44,249 nt of DNA from Sphingomonadales bacterium (GTDB lineage: Bacteria > Pseudomonadota > Alphaproteobacteria > Sphingomonadales > Sphingomonadaceae): NCBI GenBank assembly GCA_027485485.1, contig JAIXQY010000226.1:1-44249 (forward strand). The letters are read 5' to 3'. The notes under the pieces were generated by a model. That model saw nothing but the letters and a program-made list of their open reading frames with translations. It was not told the DNA's origin and made no database searches. Positions 4,095 through 14,177 of the stretch are shown here, piece after piece (position 1 is the stretch's first letter; each line of letters begins with the position of its first letter). The position numbers were made by a program, and so were the translations under genes.

Positions 4095-5024
4095 TCAGGC
4101 AAACAGGCGGGCGCGGGTGGTTGCCGGCAGCAGCATCCCGACCAGCGCACCGGCCAGGGTGAGGCCGCCGCGCCGGCGATCGGCCAGAAAGGCCGCCGCG
4201 TTGCAGCGCAGGCCGCGCAGGGCAAAGTTGAAGGCATCGGCCGCCGGGCTGCCGTTGCGCAGGGCGCGGCGGGCGAGATAGCGGCAATAAATGGCTTCGG
4301 CCGCAGCCAGATCGATGCTGGCGCGGTGCTGGTGGGCCAGCCGCCGCCAGCCGCGATACATGCGGCGCAGATTGGACGACAGACCGGCCGGCGACAGGCG
4401 ATATTCCACCAGCAGGCGATCGATGCCGCACACACCAAAGCCGGCAGCCGCCACACGGGCCAGCCATTCCTGATCCTCGGCATAGCCCATGCCGGGGCGG
4501 AACCCGCCCACCGCCGCGATGCAGTCGCGGGTGACAACGATGTTGGAAGTGGTGCACACCGGGTTCTCGCCAATCAGCTGGGTGATCGACAGCGGCCCGG
4601 CCGGCACGGTGGACAGGGTGCGGGCCGTGGTGCCGGCCGCGCGCCCGGCTTCCAGAAAGGCGATCTGGGCATAGCTCACCCCGGCTTCGGGATGGGCCTG
4701 GTGGAAGGCGCGGTGGCAGGCGAGCTTTTCTTCGTGCCACACATCATCGGCATCCAGAAAGGCCAGCAGCTGGCCGCGCGCCAGATCGACGCCCAGGTTG
4801 CGGGCGGCGGCCGGGCCGGCATTGGCCTGCGCCACCACGCGGATGCGATCATCACCGGCCGCCATGGCCAGCGCCACGGCAAGGCTGTTGTCGGCCGAGC
4901 CATCGTCAACAATGATCAGTTCGAAATCCTGATCGCTTTGATCGAGCACGCTGGCGATGGTGCCGGCCAGCGAGCCGACCGCGTTGAACATCGGGATGAT
5001 CACCGAGAAATGCGGGACAGTCAT
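4095..5024 (-). CDS. GT2-family glycosyltransferase (second paralogue)
   Basis: A 309-residue GT-A enzyme: FSVIIPMFNAVGSLAGTIAS at the N-terminus, FELIIVDDGSADNS for nucleotide binding, and FLDADDVWHEEKL as the metal/donor site. The later GYAEDQEWLARVAAAG segment provides the ED acid pair usual for the catalytic base region of the family. Its start overlaps the stop of the flippase gene (ATGA), and it is separated from the next GT2 by about 30 bases, so the genes are probably co-transcribed. It differs from its paralogue mainly in the middle acceptor-binding region, suggesting a different acceptor. The sugar it transfers cannot be inferred. Confidence 0.85.
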   Translation of the reverse strand: MTVPHFSVIIPMFNAVGSLAGTIASVLDQSDQDFELIIVDDGSADNSLAVALAMAAGDDRIRVVAQANAGPAAARNLGVDLARGQLLAFLDADDVWHEEKLACHRAFHQAHPEAGVSYAQIAFLEAGRAAGTTARTLSTVPAGPLSITQLIGENPVCTTSNIVVTRDCIAAVGGFRPGMGYAEDQEWLARVAAAGFGVCGIDRLLVEYRLSPAGLSSNLRRMYRGWRRLAHQHRASIDLAAAEAIYCRYLARRALRNGSPAADAFNFALRGLRCNAAAFLADRRRGGLTLAGALVGMLLPATTRARLFA

Positions 5025-6298
5025 GCGAAGGCTTCCTTGCGGATGGAGGCGTTGGAGCGGGTGAAGACCGCGATGGTGGCGGGGATGAGCACCAAGCCAA
5101 GGCCGGCGACATAGGCTGAGGCCGCGACGGGCAGGCCATAAGGCGCGGCCAGCGCCAGGGCAGCCAGGGCCGCCATGGTGGCCGCCGTGCTGATCGTGGC
5201 ATCAAGGCCGGTGGCGCCATCGGCGCGCAGCCAGGCGGTGGTGGCGGCAGAGGCCACCATCGGCAGCGCCGCCAGGCCCAGCAGCGCCACCAGCGGCGCG
5301 GCATCCAGCCAATGCTGACCAAAGAGCAGCGGCACATAGAGGGGAGCGAGCAGCACCTGCGCCAGCGTCATCGGCAGGAACACGCCCAGCCCGATCAACA
5401 GGCCATTGCGATAACGCGCGGCGCGGGCGCTGCGATCGGCGGCCTTGCACAGCCACGGGAACAACACGGTGCCAAAGGCGCTGACAAACGACGTGGTGAT
5501 GCCCAGGCCGGCGTTGAAGGCGAAATACCAGATGCCCAGCGCCTTGACGCCCAACAGCGCGCCGATGATCAGCTTGTCGATCTGGGCGCGGGCGGCGCCG
5601 GCGATCTCGGTGGCCAGCACGCCGGCACCAAAGCGCACGAACCCGGCCACCGGCACGAACCCGGCGGCGGCATTGCGCACCCACGGCCGCGCCCGGCGCA
5701 CACCGGCCAGCCAGATCGGCGTGGTGAGCAGCTTGGGCAGCACGATGGCAAAGGCGATGCTCGCCGGATCGGGCCAGGCCAGCACCAGCACCAGCGTGAG
5801 CACATGATCGGCCAGCGTCTGGGTGGCGCCGATGCGCGCCGTGGTGGTCAGGCGGCCTTCGCGCATCAGCAGGAACACCTGCACCAGCCCGGCCGGCATG
5901 GTGAGATAGACCAGGCTGAGCACAGCCAGCATGGCAGCGGCGGCCGGCTGGGTGAAGGCCAGCGCGCCGGCCAGCGCCAGTTGCAGCGCCGAAATGATTG
6001 GGCACCAGATCCAGAACAGGCGATGGGCGCTGTTGCAGGTTGCATCCAGCAGCGCATCGGGCGCGGCGATGATGCGCTGGCCAATGCCGGCGTTGGCCAG
6101 CACGCGCACCAGTTCAAACAAAGACAGCGCGAGGGCCGCCGCGCCCATCATTTCGGGCGCCAACCGGCGCGCAATCACGATCACGGTGAGGATGCGGGTG
6201 ACACGCACCACCAGCTCGGCCGAGCCATAGGCCGCCAGACCGCGCAGCAGAGCGCTGCCGTCTTCGGTCTTTCTGGCCAGGGAGAATGGCAATGGCAT
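5021..6298 (-). CDS. Wzx-like polysaccharide flippase
   Basis: A 425-residue polytopic membrane protein with about 12-14 hydrophobic segments, of the MATE/MOP-like polysaccharide transporter group (lipopolysaccharide biosynthesis translocase). The N-terminus (GLAAYGSAELVVRVTRILTV) and the central GAGVLATEIAGAARAQIDKL with nearby LLGVKALGIWYFA are typical of PST-type flippases, which move the undecaprenyl-linked repeat unit across the inner membrane. The ATG at 6298 is chosen over one 14 codons upstream because AAGGA stands at a suitable distance before it. It is the first gene of the leftward operon and is divergent from the fused transferase gene at 6551, with a 250-base intergenic region between them that should hold both promoters. 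Confidence 0.8.
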   Translation of the reverse strand: MPLPFSLARKTEDGSALLRGLAAYGSAELVVRVTRILTVIVIARRLAPEMMGAAALALSLFELVRVLANAGIGQRIIAAPDALLDATCNSAHRLFWIWCPIISALQLALAGALAFTQPAAAAMLAVLSLVYLTMPAGLVQVFLLMREGRLTTTARIGATQTLADHVLTLVLVLAWPDPASIAFAIVLPKLLTTPIWLAGVRRARPWVRNAAAGFVPVAGFVRFGAGVLATEIAGAARAQIDKLIIGALLGVKALGIWYFAFNAGLGITTSFVSAFGTVLFPWLCKAADRSARAARYRNGLLIGLGVFLPMTLAQVLLAPLYVPLLFGQHWLDAAPLVALLGLAALPMVASAATTAWLRADGATGLDATISTAATMAALAALALAAPYGLPVAASAYVAGLGLVLIPATIAVFTRSNASIRKEAFA

Positions 6299-6411
6299 GA
6301 GGCAATCCTTGTGACGGCCAGGATCGGCCGCTCTGGCCATTGCATTTCAAGAAACGTGCCAACCGGCCAATCAGACTGATCCGGGCCGCAGCAGTCGGCT
6401 TGACGCCGGGT

Positions 6412-6471: not shown

Positions 6472-6550
6472 CCTGAGGGCGGGCTGGCGCTGGGCAGGAA
6501 GTTGGCACGGTTCGTGCTGGAAGAGTGGCAAGACAAACAGGGGACTCCAT

Positions 6551-7933
6551 ATGCGCCACACTCATGATTTCGATGCCAAGGCAGCGCTCGACACGCCGCT
6601 GTTCAACATGTCGCTGCTCGATGCCAGCCGCCAGGAAACCGCCGAGGCGCTGGTCAATCTGGCCGATCAGGGCGTTCCGATGGTGGTCAATTTCGTCAAT
6701 GCGCATTGTGTCAACATGGCCACCCGCCGCGATGATTATGCCGCCACCCTGCAGGACAGCGACGCGCTGTTGCCCGATGGCTCGGGCATTCGCCTTGCCG
6801 CGCGGCTGGCCGGCACCAACACCGGCGAGAATCTGAACGGCACTGATCTGTTCCCGCTGGTGTGCGAGCGCGCCGCCGCGCGCGGAACGCCGATCTTCCT
6901 GCTGGGCGGCAGCCCCGGCATCGCGGCGGCCGCTGCCGCCGCCATGCAAGAACGCTTTCCGGCGCTGCAGATTGCCGGCACCCAGCATGGCTATTTCAGC
7001 GACAGCGAGAATGATCAGATCGTCGACCTCATCAACGCCTCCGGCGCGGCGATCCTGTTTGTCGGCTTTGGCGTGCCCCGGCAGGAATTGTGGATTGCCC
7101 GTCACCGCGACCGGATCGATGCGCCGCTGCTGCTCGGCGTGGGCGGGCTGTTTGACTATTATTCCGGCCGCATTCCGCGCGCGCCGCTGCTGCTGCGCCG
7201 GATGGGCTGCGAATGGGTGTGGCGGCTGGCCCAGGAGCCCCGGCGGCTGGCCAACCGCTATCTGATCGGCAATCTGGTGTTTGTCGGCCACGCCGTGGCC
7301 CATGCCTATCGCGCCACCGGCGTGGCGGCCAGCATCGGCGCCGGCGTCAAGCGCACGGTGGATCTGCTGGCATCGGCGGGTCTGCTGGTCGCCCTGTCGC
7401 CCGTGTTGCTGGGGGTGGCGCTGGCCATCAAGCTGGAAGATCGCGGCCCGGCGCTGTTCCGCCAGACGCGCATCGGCGCCAACGGCCGGCCGTTCACCAT
7501 GCTGAAATTCCGGTCCATGCACATTGATGCCGAAGCCCGCCGCGCCGCCCTGCTGGCCCAGAGCGAGCGCGACAGCGTGTGTTTCAAGATGCGCAAGGAT
7601 CCGCGCATCACCCGGGTGGGCGCCTTCATCCGGCGCTTTTCGCTGGATGAGCTGCCGCAGATCATCAACGTGCTGTTGGGTGACATGTCGCTGGTCGGCC
7701 CGCGCCCGGCGCTGCCGGCCGAAGTTGCCACCTATCGGGGCCGCAGCTGGCAACGTCTGGGCGGCAAGCCCGGCATCACCTGCATCTGGCAGGTGTCGGG
7801 CCGGGCCGAGATCGAATTTGAACAGCAGGTGGAAATGGACATCGCCTATCTGGGCCTGCGCAGCCTGGCCACCGACATCGGCCTGCTGTTGCGCACCATC
7901 CCGGCGGTGATCAGCGGACGCGGCGCATACTGA
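6551..7933 (+). CDS. Fused WecG/TagA-type glycosyltransferase and polyprenyl-phosphate sugar-1-phosphate transferase
   Basis: A 460-residue two-domain protein. Residues about 15-240 are a WecG/TagA/CpsF (GT26) domain: [46 protein letters not shown] and the [17 protein letters not shown] end. Residues about 265-460 are a bacterial sugar transferase (WcaJ/PglC-type monotopic PGT): KRTVDLL with one hydrophobic re-entrant segment, FTMLKFRSM, the DE catalytic pair in [12 protein letters not shown] (D366, E367), [10 protein letters not shown] and [13 protein letters not shown]. The PGT half would start the repeat unit on undecaprenyl phosphate at the membrane, and the GT26 half would add the second sugar. 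AGGGGA precedes the ATG by about seven bases. It is transcribed away from the flippase operon of the same locus. Confidence 0.88.
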
Positions 7934-8183: not shown

Positions 8184-10817
8184 TCAGCGCCCCACCACGA
8201 TGCGGGCGTCGCTCACCAGCAATGTTTCGCGGCTGAGCGTCACCGGCACCGGCGCAGCATGTTCCGCCTCCAGCCGCCATTGCCCCGGCGGCACGCCATC
8301 GAAATAGGCCAGCCCGTCAAAATCGCTCCGCGTCACCGCAAAGCGCTTGCCGGCGGGATCGACCAGCGCCACCTCGATGCCCGGCAAGGGCCGGCGCACA
8401 TCGCCATTCACGCTTTCCACCTGGGCTTCGATCTCGCCGGTCTGGCGCAGCGGCACCGCCACATCCAGCACCTGGCCGGGGCGCAGCACCGCCGTCACGC
8501 CCGGCTGCACCGGCCGCAACCGCAGATCGGGCAGCGAGGCCAATTGCACTTCCACATCAACACCGCTGTTGGGCATCAGCCCGCCGATGCGCACGCGGCC
8601 GTTGCTGCCAGTGGCTTCGCGGCGCACGCTGCTGTCAACGATGAAGCTGGCGCCGGCGATATCGGGCTCGCCCGGCCCTTGCGCGCCGTCGCCGTCCACA
8701 TCTTCAAACACATGCGGCTGCAAGGTGCCACTGCGGCCGATACCGGCGGCTGCCAGGTGATAGCCCCGCCGATCCGGAAACAGCGCCGCCTGCAGCGACA
8801 GGCCAACCCGCCAGCCATTGAGGCCATAACCGGCCCCGGCGCCCAGCGAAAAGGCGCCGAAATGGCGCTGCGCCGTGGCGGCGATGCTGGCGACACCGCG
8901 CTGGGCATCCCAGCCCAGATCAATCCCCAGGCTGCCGCGCGTCGTCGCCCGGCCGGCTGACAGGCCGATCTGGCGCAAGCGCAGGCCATCACTGGCGCTG
9001 ACATCGATGCCGCCGCGCAACCGCCAGCTGCCCACCGCCCGCGCCACGGCGAGATTGCCCAACAGGATCGGCGCGTCGCCACCGCGTTTCTCAAGGCTGG
9101 CACCCTGGCTGAGGCGCCATTCGCCCAGCGCCAGCGCCAGCCCGGCATCAACCCGGTCCAGCGTGTTGCCGCCGCGATCCACCATATGCCGCCAGCCGGT
9201 GATCAGTGGCAGGCTGCGGCGGCCCAGCGCGATGCGGGTTTCGGCCGAAATGCCGAACTCGCGCGCCAGATCGCTCACGGCGCTCGGCAGCGATGGCCCG
9301 CTCAGGTTGCCATAATCGGCAAGGTCGAACTTGATGTTGGTGCGGCCCCACTGCCGCACGCCGCGCAGCGCCAGCGCCGGGCGGCCGCTGCCATCGCCGG
9401 CCACCAGCAGGCTGCCAAAGCCGCCGAACAGCGCGGCATGCACACCCGCCGCCAGCGCCGGCGTGCCGCCATCCAGCGGGGCGCGCACATCCACCCGCAT
9501 CGACATGCCGCCCGGCAGGCCATGTTCAACGCTGGCAAACGCCACCTTGCCCAGCGCGGTCTGCGTCGGTGCCGGAGCGCCGAGCAAGGGCACGCCGCTG
9601 TCCACCACGCCCGCGCTGTAGTAGAACTCATTCTCCGGGTTGAGCTCGCTGCCGACATAGCGGCTGAATGGCCGCTCCTCGATCTCGCCATGCGGGCCAA
9701 GCAGGCGGACGACATAATTATTGGCCCCGGCGCGCAGCGGCACATTGGCAAACACATAATCGCCGGCGGCATCCGGCGTGTCGCACACCGCCACCAGCCG
9801 ATCATCACGGTGCAGCTCGGCATCCCAGCCGCGCGGCAGCGGCCCGCGCAGCTCGATCTGATCGAACAGATCGGCGCGCCAGGGCGGGCGGTTGGAAATG
9901 ACGATGCCGCGGCCGCTGCTGGCAACACCGATCAGCGGTTGGGCCGGCGCATTCACATCGCCGAAGGCGAAACTGCGGGCGTGGAGGAAACCGAGCTGAT
10001 CGGCCGCTTCGCTGTCGCGGCCAAGCGCGACGCGGATGCTGGTCTGGCCGGTGCTGTCACCGGCCAGCCGGGCACGCGCGGTCATGCCGGCCAGATCGCC
10101 GATCAGTTCGGCCTGGCCAGCGGCAAAGCCGCCACGGCTGCCTGCTTCACCGGTCAGCGCCAGATCGATGGTCGGCAGGCCGGCCAGGCTCCAGGGGTTG
10201 GCGATGCGGGGAAATTGGGGTCGCGCCGGTTCGGCACCGCGCAGGGCCTGCGCCCGGCGTTCCGCCCGGTCCAGCCGCGCGATCACCGGCAGCGGCTCGC
10301 TGGCCTCCATGCTGATGCGCAGATTGGCTTCGTCATGCCGCACCGTCATCGGCAGCAGCCGGGCAAAGGCGGTGATGGCCAGGCACGGGCCTTCGGGCGA
10401 TGGCGTCAGATCGGCCGCCGGCACCGGCACGCGGCGTTCGGGGGCGTGAAGTTCGATGACCGGCTGGCCTTCGGTTTCGGCATGGCCGATTTCCAGCGCA
10501 TCAAGCACCGGCAGCAGCGGCAGGCACAGCCCGGCTGGCGTCTGATAGGCGGGCAGCGATTCCAGCAGCTGGTAACGGCCGAGATGCAGGGCCACGATGC
10601 TGAGATCGTCGCGGCCGGCACGCGGGCTGCGGCTGCCGCTGACCCGCGCCGGCTCTTCGCCGAACAGGTCATCATAGACCTTGTCATTCTCGCGCGCCGG
10701 AGCGCGCTGGGGGTCATTCTCACGCGCCGGCGGGCGCGGAGCCTCGCCCGCCCGCTGTTGCGCGTGCGCCGGGGCGGCCAGCACCAGGGCGGCCAGCAAA
10801 GCGAAGAGCATCCGCAT
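8184..10817 (-). CDS. Outer-membrane usher-like protein of a DUF4402 pilus
   Basis: An 877-residue exported protein, the usual usher length, with a signal peptide (MRMLFALLAALVLAAPAHA). After a charged N-terminal segment containing a tandem PARENDPQR/PARENDK repeat, it shows usher-like features: FDQIELRGPLPRGWDAELHR, DYVFANVPLRAGANNYVVRL and GPHGEIEERPF, then a long Gly-rich amphipathic region compatible with a beta-barrel. Near residue 700 a DVDGDGAQGPGEPDIAG segment resembles the calcium-binding turn of SdrD/carboxypeptidase-regulatory-like domains, and the C-terminus is beta-rich. It would form the outer-membrane pore that assembles pilin delivered by the chaperone encoded 30 bases upstream. 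It is the last gene of the pilus locus. Start and family are clear; detailed domain borders are not. Confidence 0.78.
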   Translation of the reverse strand: MRMLFALLAALVLAAPAHAQQRAGEAPRPPARENDPQRAPARENDKVYDDLFGEEPARVSGSRSPRAGRDDLSIVALHLGRYQLLESLPAYQTPAGLCLPLLPVLDALEIGHAETEGQPVIELHAPERRVPVPAADLTPSPEGPCLAITAFARLLPMTVRHDEANLRISMEASEPLPVIARLDRAERRAQALRGAEPARPQFPRIANPWSLAGLPTIDLALTGEAGSRGGFAAGQAELIGDLAGMTARARLAGDSTGQTSIRVALGRDSEAADQLGFLHARSFAFGDVNAPAQPLIGVASSGRGIVISNRPPWRADLFDQIELRGPLPRGWDAELHRDDRLVAVCDTPDAAGDYVFANVPLRAGANNYVVRLLGPHGEIEERPFSRYVGSELNPENEFYYSAGVVDSGVPLLGAPAPTQTALGKVAFASVEHGLPGGMSMRVDVRAPLDGGTPALAAGVHAALFGGFGSLLVAGDGSGRPALALRGVRQWGRTNIKFDLADYGNLSGPSLPSAVSDLAREFGISAETRIALGRRSLPLITGWRHMVDRGGNTLDRVDAGLALALGEWRLSQGASLEKRGGDAPILLGNLAVARAVGSWRLRGGIDVSASDGLRLRQIGLSAGRATTRGSLGIDLGWDAQRGVASIAATAQRHFGAFSLGAGAGYGLNGWRVGLSLQAALFPDRRGYHLAAAGIGRSGTLQPHVFEDVDGDGAQGPGEPDIAGASFIVDSSVRREATGSNGRVRIGGLMPNSGVDVEVQLASLPDLRLRPVQPGVTAVLRPGQVLDVAVPLRQTGEIEAQVESVNGDVRRPLPGIEVALVDPAGKRFAVTRSDFDGLAYFDGVPPGQWRLEAEHAAPVPVTLSRETLLVSDARIVVGR

Positions 10818-10847
10818 GGCCCGGCACCGGCCGCCCCGTCGTTCGGA

Positions 10848-11678
10848 TCAAAGCTGGACGCGGCGGCTGGCGATCAGGCCCGGCGCCTTGGGATCGGACG
10901 AGACATAATCGATGCGCACCTCACGGCCCGCCAGCTTGGTCTTGATGTCAGCCGGCAGCGGCAGCATCACGTCGCGATCGGTGTTGGGGGTATAGATGGC
11001 AACGCCGCGCACGCTGTACACCGGGTTGGTTTCACCGGCGATGGTCAGGCGCAGATCGCCATAGGTGGATCGCGTGCCGAAGCGGGTCAGCTTGACGACC
11101 AGCATATTGTCGCCCTGGCGGGTGAGCGCCGCATTGTCGACAGTGGCCGTGGCATCGAGCGTGCCGACGCGGACGATGACCGGGATGGTGATCGAACGCA
11201 CCGCGATCAGCTGGATCGACAGCGAACCATCATTGGCGTCTTCGGTGGGGGCGGCGGTGGCGGTGCCGGCGTTGGTGGGGGCCGACATCAGGCGCAGGTG
11301 GCTGCGATATTCACCGGGGGCAAGGCCGGGCGGCGGCGTGACGGACACGCGCAGCGACTGGCGGGCACCGGGTTCCAGGATGACGCGGCGCGGCGAGAAG
11401 CGGATCATGTCGGCGGCGAACAGCTCGCCGGGACGGGTGTCGGTGGCGGTTTCCAGCGCGCCATCACGGCGCATGCGGCGGTTTTCGACATCAATGCGAT
11501 AGGCGGTCTGGGCATCGCCCTTGTTGACCAGGATCAGCTCGGTGCTGCGTTCGGCACCGGCCAGGACCACACGGGTCGGGGCGATCATCAGCTCGGCACT
11601 GGCGGGGGTGGGCAGCGCCGGGGCAGCGAGCGTGGCGAGCAAAAGCGCGAGGCGCGAAAGGCGGGTCGAAAAGCACAT
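10848..11678 (-). CDS. Periplasmic pilus chaperone (PapD-like)
   Basis: A 276-residue exported protein with a signal peptide ending near PTPASA. The mature N-terminus begins with a PapD-like first strand: IAPTRVVLAGAERSTELILV matches the PapD TRxVF strand, and its Arg corresponds to PapD Arg8, which anchors the subunit C-terminus. RFSPRRVILEPGARQSLRV is the usual end of domain 1, and TIPVIVRVG the G1-strand region. A Lys equivalent to PapD Lys112 cannot be placed. It would bind the DUF4402 subunit in the periplasm and deliver it to the usher. It lies between the pilin and usher genes on the same strand, 30 bases before the usher. Confidence 0.83.
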   Translation of the reverse strand: MCFSTRLSRLALLLATLAAPALPTPASAELMIAPTRVVLAGAERSTELILVNKGDAQTAYRIDVENRRMRRDGALETATDTRPGELFAADMIRFSPRRVILEPGARQSLRVSVTPPPGLAPGEYRSHLRLMSAPTNAGTATAAPTEDANDGSLSIQLIAVRSITIPVIVRVGTLDATATVDNAALTRQGDNMLVVKLTRFGTRSTYGDLRLTIAGETNPVYSVRGVAIYTPNTDRDVMLPLPADIKTKLAGREVRIDYVSSDPKAPGLIASRRVQL

Positions 11679-11726
11679 GGCAGGGGGCTTTCCTTCAAGG
11701 GGCAGGGGGGAGATCAGGACAGGGTC

Positions 11727-11761
11727 GGAGCCCGAAGCGCCTTGCGGGCGTTCCGGGCTCC
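11727..11761 (-). terminator. Stem-loop between pilin and chaperone genes
   Basis: An 8-base perfect stem (GGAGCCCG with CGGGCTCC) continues through three weaker pairs into CGCC/GGCG around a 5-base loop. It sits in the 101-base gap directly after the pilin stop, without a U-tract. Such a structure commonly gives partial termination or protects the 3' end of a highly expressed pilin message, leaving less chaperone and usher. That role is inferred. Confidence 0.5.
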
Positions 11762-11779
11762 TTCCCCTGCCAGAGTCGA

Positions 11780-12277
11780 TTACTGATATTCGACGGCGAC
11801 GACGAAGCGGCCGGTGTACTTGCCAGCAGCCTGACGGACGCCCACGTTCAGCGTGCCGCCGACGGTGAAGCTGTCTTCGCCCTTGACCAGACGGCCGTTG
11901 TCCTTGGAGCCCGTGAAGTCATAGACCTTCATGGCATCGCCCTTGTCGTTGGTGATTTCGATGCCGCCCGGCAGCGAGATCGTGTACACGGCGTCAGCTT
12001 CGCCCTTCACGTCGAAGGCGGCGGCGGTGTGATCGTTGGTCAGGCAGGTCAGCGCGGCGCCGCACTTCTTGTCGCCAGCCGGGGTCACGACCACGCTGTC
12101 ACCTTCGGTCAGCGACGGGGCGACGGTGCCGAAATACAGCGAAGCGGTGTTGGTGATTTCCAGCGGGGCGATGATCTTCGCGCCGGCGCCGGCTTCGGCG
12201 GTCACGGGAGCGGCGTTGGCAGCGCCAGCAGCGGCGAGCACGGTGGCGAGAGCGAGGGTCGAGATGAAGTTGCGCAT
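11780..12277 (-). CDS. DUF4402 pilin-like subunit
   Basis: A 165-residue exported protein with a signal peptide ending at ANA-APV. The mature protein starts with Ala/Gly then IIAPLEITN and contains FGTVAPS, the core of the DUF4402 family. Two nearby Cys (KKCGAALTC) could form a disulphide. The C-terminus is a classical chaperone-usher recognition strand: Gly exactly 14 residues from the end, alternating hydrophobics (F, V, V) and a penultimate Tyr (GRFVVAVEYQ). A strong GGAGAA ribosome site precedes the ATG. It is the first gene of the pilus set and the likely major subunit; no separate tip adhesin is seen here. Function is inferred from its chaperone and usher neighbours and this motif. Confidence 0.85.
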   Translation of the reverse strand: MRNFISTLALATVLAAAGAANAAPVTAEAGAGAKIIAPLEITNTASLYFGTVAPSLTEGDSVVVTPAGDKKCGAALTCLTNDHTAAAFDVKGEADAVYTISLPGGIEITNDKGDAMKVYDFTGSKDNGRLVKGEDSFTVGGTLNVGVRQAAGKYTGRFVVAVEYQ

Positions 12278-12509: not shown

Positions 12510-14177
12510 CTATGCGGCCGGATCGGCCAGCAGCAGGGCACGGCCCTGTGCGATTGCCTCTGCTACCAGCGCGCTGAGCCTGACGGCCGTGGCCGGATCG
12601 GGCCTTGCCTCGTCGCGGCTGGCCTCCAGCAGGGTGGTCAGGCCATCCACGCCGAAATTGCCGGCCACACCCACCAGGCTGTGCCGCGCCCGGCGCACCG
12701 CTTCGGCATCGCCCGCCGCCGTCCCCGCGCAAAACTCCTCACCAAGCTGGCCAAGATCGCGCGCCACCTGATCGAACAGGCCAGCGCGGCGGTTGGCCGG
12801 CAATGCGGCCATCGCGGCCAGAAAGCTTGTCGCATTGATCACTGGCGTGGGTGTCAGCGCGGCGCGCAACACCCGAAGCAGTTGCGGCACGGTGATGGGC
12901 TTGGCCAGGCATTCATTCATGCCCGCCTGTTTCAGCGCGTCGCGTTCCGACTGGATGGCCTGCGCCGTCACCCCGATGATCGGCACCGCCCCGGCCGCCC
13001 CACCCAGCTGGCGGATCTGCCGGGTCGCCTCGGCGCCGTCCATGATCGGCATCTGGATGTCCATCAATATGGCATCAATCCCGCCAAGCCGCGCCGCCGC
13101 CAGCGCCAGCGCGCCATTGCCCACCACCTGATGATCGCAACCGATGGAATCGAGCATGCTGGTCAACACGATCTGGTTGGTTTCAATATCCTCGGCCACC
13201 AATATGCGCGGCCGCCGCCCGGCCACCAGCAATGGCTGCTGGTCGCTCTCGCTGCTGGCAACCGGCGGCGCGGGCGCAGCGCCACTGCCGCCATCGGCAA
13301 TATCGATGATCTCATCGATCAGGGCGCGCAATTCATCGCCGGCGGCCCGCGCCAGCCGCAGCTGCTGGGCCTGCGCCGGATCAAGCTGGCTGTGCGCCAG
13401 CAGCTCCATCATGCCGAGCAGGCCATTCATCGGCGTGCGCACCTTGTGGCTCATCCGGGCCAGAAACTGGTTCTTGGCCTCATTGGCGGCCTGGGTGCGG
13501 GCATGGCTGGCGGCCAGCGCCGCGGCACTCTGCTCCAGTTCGACCACCCGCTCGGCCAACAGGGCATCGGCCCGCGCCAGCCGTTGCAACGCGCGCTGGC
13601 TCACCAGTTGCAGCGCCTTGCCGCGCCGCTGCGCCGCCCGCTGCGCGGTGATATCCTGCACCGTGCCCGAAATGATCGAGCGCCCATCCCCGCTCCATTC
13701 GCGGCGCGCGCTCCATCGCAGCCACCGCAGCGTCCGGTCTGGCCGCAGGATGCGACATTCATGCTGAAGCTCGCTGCCCGGGGCGCGATCGGCAAAAAAT
13801 GCCGCCTGCACGGCCACCGTGCGCTCACGATCCAGCGGGTGCAGCGCGGTGGCGACATCCGCCACGGTGACATCGCGGTCGCCGGCCAGGCCAAGAATAT
13901 CGGTCAGCGCTTCGGAGGCGCGAAACCGGTCGCCTTCCACGCCATAGAAACTGGCGATGCCGCCCAGCCGCTGGGCCTGCAACAGATTGCGGTTGCCGAT
14001 GTCCAGCTGCGCCACCAATTGCTCTTCGCGGCTGCGCAGGTCGCGATTGCTGCGGTCAAGCTCACGCGAGCGCCGTTCCAGCAGCTCTTCGGCCTCGGCG
14101 CGGGCGGCTTCCGCACGCTTCAGGCGGCGTTCCAGCAAGGCCATGGCGGCGGCCATTTCGGCCATAGCGTCCGTCAT
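12510..14177 (-). CDS. Hybrid sensor protein lacking the kinase ATPase domain (PAS-DHp-REC-HPt)
   Basis: A 555-residue cytosolic protein. In order: N-terminal coiled coil (about 10-60), a PAS/PAC domain (about 65-180), a second coiled coil, and a HisKA helical hairpin with MSHKVRTPMNGLLGM (His244, about 235-295). A Pro/Ala/Ser linker of some 30 residues follows, then a receiver (about 323-440; AED, Asp373 in LMDIQMP, Thr in VTAQA, Lys426 in AKP) and an HPt domain with His499 in HSLVGVAGNFG. The HATPase domain with N, G1 and G2 boxes is absent, and the acidic residue normally following the phospho-His is Lys (AAG). It cannot autophosphorylate by the usual route and may be a phosphorelay partner of the full kinase whose stop it overlaps (ATGA). 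Confidence 0.88.
   Translation of the reverse strand: MTDAMAEMAAAMALLERRLKRAEAARAEAEELLERRSRELDRSNRDLRSREEQLVAQLDIGNRNLLQAQRLGGIASFYGVEGDRFRASEALTDILGLAGDRDVTVADVATALHPLDRERTVAVQAAFFADRAPGSELQHECRILRPDRTLRWLRWSARREWSGDGRSIISGTVQDITAQRAAQRRGKALQLVSQRALQRLARADALLAERVVELEQSAAALAASHARTQAANEAKNQFLARMSHKVRTPMNGLLGMMELLAHSQLDPAQAQQLRLARAAGDELRALIDEIIDIADGGSGAAPAPPVASSESDQQPLLVAGRRPRILVAEDIETNQIVLTSMLDSIGCDHQVVGNGALALAAARLGGIDAILMDIQMPIMDGAEATRQIRQLGGAAGAVPIIGVTAQAIQSERDALKQAGMNECLAKPITVPQLLRVLRAALTPTPVINATSFLAAMAALPANRRAGLFDQVARDLGQLGEEFCAGTAAGDAEAVRRARHSLVGVAGNFGVDGLTTLLEASRDEARPDPATAVRLSALVAEAIAQGRALLLADPAA

Follow-up and report, generated by a model that had tools for sequence, protein, structure and literature searches.

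Introduction

Among described systems, the RscS/HahK-SypF-SypG pathway of Vibrio fischeri, in which SypG is a sigma-54 activator, comes closest to the scheme that we propose here for X, a hybrid-kinase-like protein without an ATPase (CA) domain. H-NOX proteins are nitric oxide sensors. As described in excerpts of PMC11841056 and PMC12369376, the HPt of SypF receives phosphate from several hybrid kinases, among them one that H-NOX controls, and SypF hands it on to a response regulator that switches on a polysaccharide locus; we liken X to SypF in both respects. The same excerpts state that a strain with the SypF HPt alone still forms biofilm, and that SypF is not strictly needed when HahK is overproduced, with LuxU as a substitute. 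The likeness is drawn from descriptions of the pathway, and these excerpts treat SypF as a sensor kinase, whereas X has no CA domain. By analogy, a SypF-like hub taken to its evolutionary end point would look like X.

RcsD contains a pseudo-histidine-kinase domain but lacks a receiver (REC), RocA has neither REC nor HPt, and ChpT, Spo0B and DivL are kinase-derived proteins that are reused without normal kinase activity and keep a CA-like domain, unlike X. An excerpt of PMC3762810 describes RcsD (RcsC-RcsD-RcsB) as a kinase-like protein whose HPt relays to a regulator the phosphate that a partner hybrid kinase supplies, as X may do, and also claims that RcsD can autophosphorylate. Compared by literature function only, X differs from RcsD in having kept its His and REC and in the complete absence of CA. 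RocA of group A Streptococcus, which we also liken to X, is a pseudokinase partner of a real kinase, and a mutant is said to be complemented when RocA lacking CA is overexpressed (excerpt of PMC7028121); RocA can do without its His, whereas X retains the relay residues. In Caulobacter, H-NOX is encoded beside the histidine kinase HnoK (excerpt of PMC10746521), which recalls the H-NOX linkage of X. Unlike HnoK, the system described here comprises a pair of kinases, one of which lacks CA, plus an NtrC-type regulator and polysaccharide genes.

According to an excerpt of PMC3510030, four HisKA kinases need the acid that follows the phospho-accepting His (H+1) for kinase but not for phosphatase activity, and Thr or Asn at H+4 for phosphatase but not for kinase activity; for phosphatase activity, CrdS hardly needs the His, while PleC needs it. 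HK853 without CA was phosphatase-active at pH 8, but not at pH 5, according to earlier authors cited in an excerpt of PMC7005713, which disputes their structural model. Pseudokinase partners, REC-HPt relays and H-NOX signalling are already known kinds of component. In the open-licence literature that we searched, we found neither a HisKA-REC-HPt protein without CA whose descent from a complete kinase can be traced, nor H-NOX/sigma-54 control of polysaccharide (perhaps pilus) genes in this group.

Results

X has the layout coiled coil-PAS-HisKA-REC-HPt and is encoded by an intact frame in the window (the whole stretch of DNA analysed, 44,249 nucleotides; Table 1). The first-pass annotation had described a DHp hairpin followed, after a 30-residue linker, by a receiver and an HPt. 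This order stood, and the linker proved slightly shorter, at about 26 residues by Pfam borders. Its claim that X has no ATPase domain was borne out: no HATPase family matched X in Pfam at E<=1, the linker included, and a family CA profile gave no match. X thus fails on both counts expected of a HisKA kinase, having neither a CA domain (N, G1 and G2 boxes) nor an acid at H+1, where Lys245 was confirmed from its codon. Since both are missing, a kinase role for the DHp of X is unlikely. X does carry the H+4 Thr of HisKA phosphatases (Thr248), and its receiver has the phosphorylatable Asp373 and the conserved Lys426, the latter present in 17/17 CA-less proteins of the family. By sequence, then, X carries a phosphatase-only residue set, and retention of His244 and Thr248 despite loss of the kinase acid makes its DHp a probable phosphatase.

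Lys at H+3 is usual in HPt domains. The HPt of X has His499 and Gly503, with Val502 in place of that Lys, which is present in 6/17 CA-less proteins. The earlier statement that receiver and HPt residues are conserved is therefore right for Asp373, His499 and Gly503 and wrong for H+3, and the missing Lys counts against reading X as a relay hub.

Table 1. Features of X and of its surroundings in the window
Feature	Position	Strand	Remarks
X, CA-less hybrid-kinase-like protein	12510..14177	-	555 aa, ATG start, frame intact
PAS_3 domain of X	13665..13922	-	residues 86-171, Pfam
HisKA (DHp) hairpin of X	13284..13478	-	residues 234-298, PF00512, 1.2e-12
Short linker of X, site of CA domain in complete relatives	13206..13283	-	Pfam borders and alignment
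Receiver of X (Response_reg)	12867..13205	-	residues 325-437, Pfam 2e-19
HPt of X (Hpt)	12567..12779	-	residues 467-537, Pfam 1.8e-5, 25.4 bits against a cut-off of 24.6
His244 of X (CAC)	13446..13448	-	phospho-accepting His of DHp; kept in 40/41 family members
Lys245 of X (AAG), where the H+1 acid is expected	13443..13445	-	codon read
Thr248 of X (ACG), H+4, phosphatase position	13434..13436	-	41/41 in family; role from excerpt of PMC3510030
Asp373 of X (GAC), receiver	13059-13061	-	codon read
His499 of X (CAC), HPt	12681-12683	-	codon read
Partner hybrid kinase, 1192 aa	14174..17752	-	PAS, HisKA 713-778, HATPase_c 823-933 (9.7e-31), REC 959-1065, sub-threshold HPt
Sigma-54-type site TGGCACGCTCCTTGAA	12349..12364	-	87 nt before DUF4402 gene
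DUF4402 protein, putative pilin	11780..12277	-	"pilin" is a guess
Putative pilus chaperone, 276 aa	10848..11678	-	name by eye
Putative usher-like protein, 877 aa	8184..10817	-	sub-threshold Pfam matches only; name by eye
WecG and bacterial sugar transferase fusion (polysaccharide synthesis)	6551..7933	+	
Sigma-54-type site TGGCACGGTTCGTGCT	6503..6518	+	48 nt before WecG gene
Sigma-54-type site TGGCACGTTTCTTGAA	6346..6361	-	21 nt before Wzx-type gene
Wzx-type polysaccharide biosynthesis protein (Polysacc_synt_3)	5021..6340	-	
Family 2 glycosyltransferase	4095..5024	-	

Other searches with X were less informative. NCBIfam returned 73 families, and the 25 displayed all fell far under their own cut-offs; plasmids gave no match at 1e-30. 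A scan of genome contigs found hybrid kinases that resemble parts of X, with a best E of 2e-26 among the 80 loci retained of 579. An AlphaFold2 model of X alone had a mean pLDDT of 52; its helical hairpin at 166-295 is compatible with a DHp, and we do not count it as evidence.

Matches to X occurred in 7/24 genomes of the genus, its own genome counted (E<=1e-40), and in 25/397 genomes of the family (E<=1e-45). Of 30 relatives aligned to X (the starts of L124 and L133 shortened to fit), 16, from 15 other genomes, are without the CA region, and the other 14 contain a stretch of CA size. The first-pass annotation had noted that a local deletion would be the explanation if all relatives kept the ATPase domain; since 16 share the layout of X, the deletion is not local, and chance or an assembly artefact is unlikely. 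Pfam (E<=0.001) recognised HisKA and REC in all 31 X-family proteins, Hpt in 21/31 and HATPase_c in 3/31. HATPase_c E-values were 8e-27 in L141, 4e-26 in L142, 5e-9 in L138 and 0.024 in L139, and single scans of L136, L137, L140, L145, L146 and L149 (the long relatives L143, L144, L147 and L148 were left out) gave no HATPase_c at E<=1. As scores among long relatives thus run from strong to none, the CA domain forms a graded series: intact, degenerate and deleted.

To this set we added proteins from H-NOX-containing genomes. A family profile run on the 34 genomes with H-NOX and no X at 1e-45 matched 28 at 1e-30; regions fetched from 12 of these 28 yielded 10 further proteins and hence a 41-row table, which omits L224 and L233. 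One source, the genome of L095 and L122 (G014), is a bin 78% complete with 6% contamination. Scored against a CA profile derived from the partner kinases described below, 11 of the 41 rows are intact (119-150 bits; all others <=43); of the rest, 13 are degenerate and 17 deleted. L224 (6050-8329) is an X relative with a single in-frame TAG after about 127 residues, and L233 (3334-7371) is a cluster in several frames in which H-NOX, X and partner kinase all seem incomplete.

The acid at H+1, always Asp, is present in 11/11 intact, 4/13 degenerate and 0/17 deleted proteins, in agreement with the earlier proposal that loss of the catalytic domain goes together with loss of the catalytic acid. Because four degenerate proteins still have it, CA decay probably came before acid loss. 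In the 17 CA-less proteins H+1 is Lys in three, Asn in two, Gln in three, Arg in four and Ala in five; their common feature is loss of the acid, not a conserved Lys, and we rejected a special role for Lys245. The other key residues are nearly invariant: Asp373 and Thr248 are kept in 41/41, His244 in 40/41 and His499 in the 39/39 that have an HPt, and the CA-less proteins retain all four (17/17 each). L149 (7229-9253) is the sole case of DHp His loss; it has Asp instead, and retains the H+4 Thr, the REC Asp and the HPt His. L234 and L235, the two without HPt, are the most distant rows; L234 (764-8749) is CA-intact and shares its gene row with H-NOX, NtrC and another complete hybrid kinase.

A tree built without the CA columns and the H-box placed the CA-less proteins in two clades, one of 7 rows including the window's protein and one of 10 rows (L126-L135). 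A single CA-less clade was rejected (p-AU 7e-6 with 41 rows; 8.6e-6 with a 31-row set). In the best tree all proteins without an intact CA lie on one side, with weak support (40/89). The simplest history suggested by this tree would be one inactivation together with acquisition of a partner kinase, followed by two deletions; the direction of change depends on the root, which we chose to place on L234/L235. Partner gain and CA inactivation map to the same weakly supported branch, so that their association amounts to one event, and the only independent events are the two later CA deletions. With just 2 pairs available, an independent-pairs comparison of deletion with acid loss had no power.

Among nine CA-less pairs, which partly overlap, DHp dN/dS was 0.04-0.15 in eight and 0.52 in the window-L121 pair; it was no higher than that of REC in 5/9. 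REC ranged over 0.05-0.23 and HPt over 0.09-0.35, and the linker reached 0.17-1.25 in the eight pairs where it was defined. The reading frame is open in all 17 CA-less proteins, one of which (L125) ends at a contig end, and their appearance differs from that of the truly broken cluster L233.

The gene directly upstream of X encodes a hybrid kinase whose stop overlaps the start of X (ATGA), and many partner/X pairs in relatives overlap or abut. A kinase-like gene lies within 400 bp upstream in 27/28 checkable proteins with a dead or deleted CA (of 30 rows, L095 and L228, at contig edges, could not be checked), the exception being L130, where it lies 4.1 kb upstream; none of the 11 CA-intact relatives has one. 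In 10 of these 11 the fetched region holds no other kinase-like ORF; the eleventh, L234, has the complete hybrid kinase noted above, next to NtrC and some 2 kb downstream. The corresponding 2x2 tables look strong, but Fisher tests ignore relatedness, and we do not rely on them.

In the 28 partner kinases, Pfam (E<=0.001) found HATPase_c in 28, HisKA in 26, REC in 14 and Hpt in 12, and judged by eye 25/28 have canonical H, N, G1 and G2 boxes (deviants L143, L146 and L147). In the 14/28 pairs whose partner gave no REC match, X is the one member with a receiver. Single scans of the partners of L127, L131, L135, L140 and L149 gave HisKA and HATPase_c with neither REC nor Hpt. In such pairs only X can provide the receiver and HPt steps, and these partners are the best evidence that X may serve as a relay. 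The window's own partner has a REC and a sub-threshold HPt that retains its His, so the relay there might manage without X. In L146 (7489-8718) and L147 (7520-8569) the partner's phospho-His is lost (Gln or Glu) and its G boxes seem degenerate; both members of these pairs look kinase-dead.

Downstream of X, relatives carry H-NOX (PF07700) together with an NtrC-type regulator, a polysaccharide block (WecG/sugar transferase, Wzx and glycosyltransferases), or both sets, and at several loci NtrC, H-NOX and X lie in one cluster. H-NOX was present in 30/30 examined genomes that have X. In the family sample it occurred in 25/25 genomes that match X at 1e-45 and in 34/372 that do not; no fewer than 9 of those 34 turned out to hold an X relative. 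In the window's genome, H-NOX (79% identical to the relatives' orthologues) and NtrC (74%) are adjacent on a separate 4.9-kb contig, C227, unlinked to the window in the assembly; rpoN is present. On that contig (L161) an epimerase gene, identified by Pfam, lies beside H-NOX/NtrC, and a neighbouring ORF is chain-length-like by eye only, with no Pfam match.

We scored sigma-54-like sites as consensus with <=1 mismatch within 250 bp before a gene. They precede wzx at 19/28 and wecG at 20/26 loci, versus 5/361 other genes, a comparison mildly biased because starts were homology-adjusted for reference-matched genes and not for the "other" genes; in most loci surveyed, a single intergenic region lies upstream of both wzx and wecG. 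Elsewhere such sites precede X at 1/39, kinases at 0/26, H-NOX at 3/14 and NtrC at 0/14. The window by itself has four against 2.9 expected, which is not above chance, and the weight of the sites comes only from their position and conservation.

Discussion

We propose that X descends from a complete hybrid kinase (PAS-DHp-CA-REC-HPt) and has become a non-catalytic phosphorelay hub with a DHp that is a probable phosphatase, a reading to which we assign a probability of about two in three. Phosphate would come from the kinase encoded directly upstream and pass to a receiver, either the partner's own or, where the partner has none, Asp373 of X. From the receiver it would move to His499 in the HPt of X and on to the receiver of the NtrC-type regulator, which would activate sigma-54 promoters, those of polysaccharide genes and, in the present genome, that of a putative pilus operon as well; H-NOX is a likely input. 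With a partner kinase present, the CA of X would have lost its function and been deleted at least twice, while the DHp hairpin would have been retained as a dimer platform and a probable phosphatase that drains phosphate from the receiver. This agrees with the first-pass suggestion of a relay or phosphatase partner formed by remodelling, not of a gene in simple decay. The scheme does not fit every genome, because L149 has no His244 and the partners of L146 and L147 have no His of their own. Nor does a phosphatase alone explain why His244 is retained, given that the CrdS phosphatase hardly needs its His.

The conserved His also bears on what else the DHp could be. It might be a dimerisation platform only, with His and Thr non-catalytic and X a plain REC-HPt relay. 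SypF is able to function with its HPt alone (excerpt of PMC11841056), and L149 did lose the His; against this, His244 and Thr248 are retained in 40/41 and 41/41 proteins, including all 17 without CA, and DHp dN/dS is low (0.04-0.15 in 8/9 pairs), in 5/9 at or below the level of REC, so we hold this reading to be doubtful, if possible. Retention of His244 and the many overlapping or abutting genes would suit a split kinase, in which the partner's CA, found in 28/28 partners examined, phosphorylates His244 in trans in a mixed dimer before phosphate passes within X to Asp373 and His499. Here the acid needed for His phosphorylation is missing from 17/17 CA-less proteins, and an excerpt of PMC3510030 reports that changing the CrdS Glu to Asp or Gln already abolished kinase activity; with the His itself lost in L149, we regard a split kinase as unlikely. 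The fast linker, the window-L121 DHp dN/dS of 0.52 and the truly broken L233 are what a decaying gene would show, one that lost CA by chance and is now disappearing. Such decay is already largely refuted, and is highly improbable, given two CA-less clades with open frames (up to the contig end in L125), Asp373 and His499 in 17/17 and low dN/dS in 8/9 pairs.

A further question is which regulator X serves. The window's NtrC gene is on a separate contig, and X could serve some regulator other than the H-NOX-linked NtrC, the sigma-54 link to polysaccharide genes then being one of neighbourhood only. H-NOX in 25/25 family genomes with X at 1e-45, the clustering of NtrC, H-NOX and X at several loci, and sigma-54-like sites ahead of the linked polysaccharide genes make this quite improbable. 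More speculatively, H-NOX could gate the DHp of X, making X a HisKA protein without CA that is devoted to phosphatase and relay work; nitric oxide would switch it between passing phosphate via REC-HPt to the sigma-54 regulator and draining it. We offer this only tentatively; if true, a kinase family would have given its ATP step to a neighbouring gene and kept only the off-switch, twice.

Under our preferred reading, X as a relay hub with a probable DHp phosphatase, X would be a natural example of a kinase becoming a relay and possibly a phosphatase partner. Conversion of a kinase into a pseudokinase partner is usually visible only at its end point, whereas the X family has intact, degenerate and deleted CA domains side by side, and the change tracks the presence of a neighbouring kinase. 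X is also a small natural DHp-REC-HPt protein in which to ask if a CA-less DHp works as a phosphatase, and its family points to H-NOX/sigma-54 control of polysaccharide, perhaps pilus, genes.

The genes that follow X in the window (8184-12277, minus strand) resemble a chaperone-usher pilus operon that is hardly recognised by Pfam, NCBIfam or PDB sequences; for the putative chaperone, searches of Pfam (0.001), NCBIfam (0.01) and PDB sequences (0.1) gave no match. A similar pilus-like block adjoins H-NOX/NtrC in L124, where X, the DUF4402-chaperone-usher genes, H-NOX and NtrC are consecutive.
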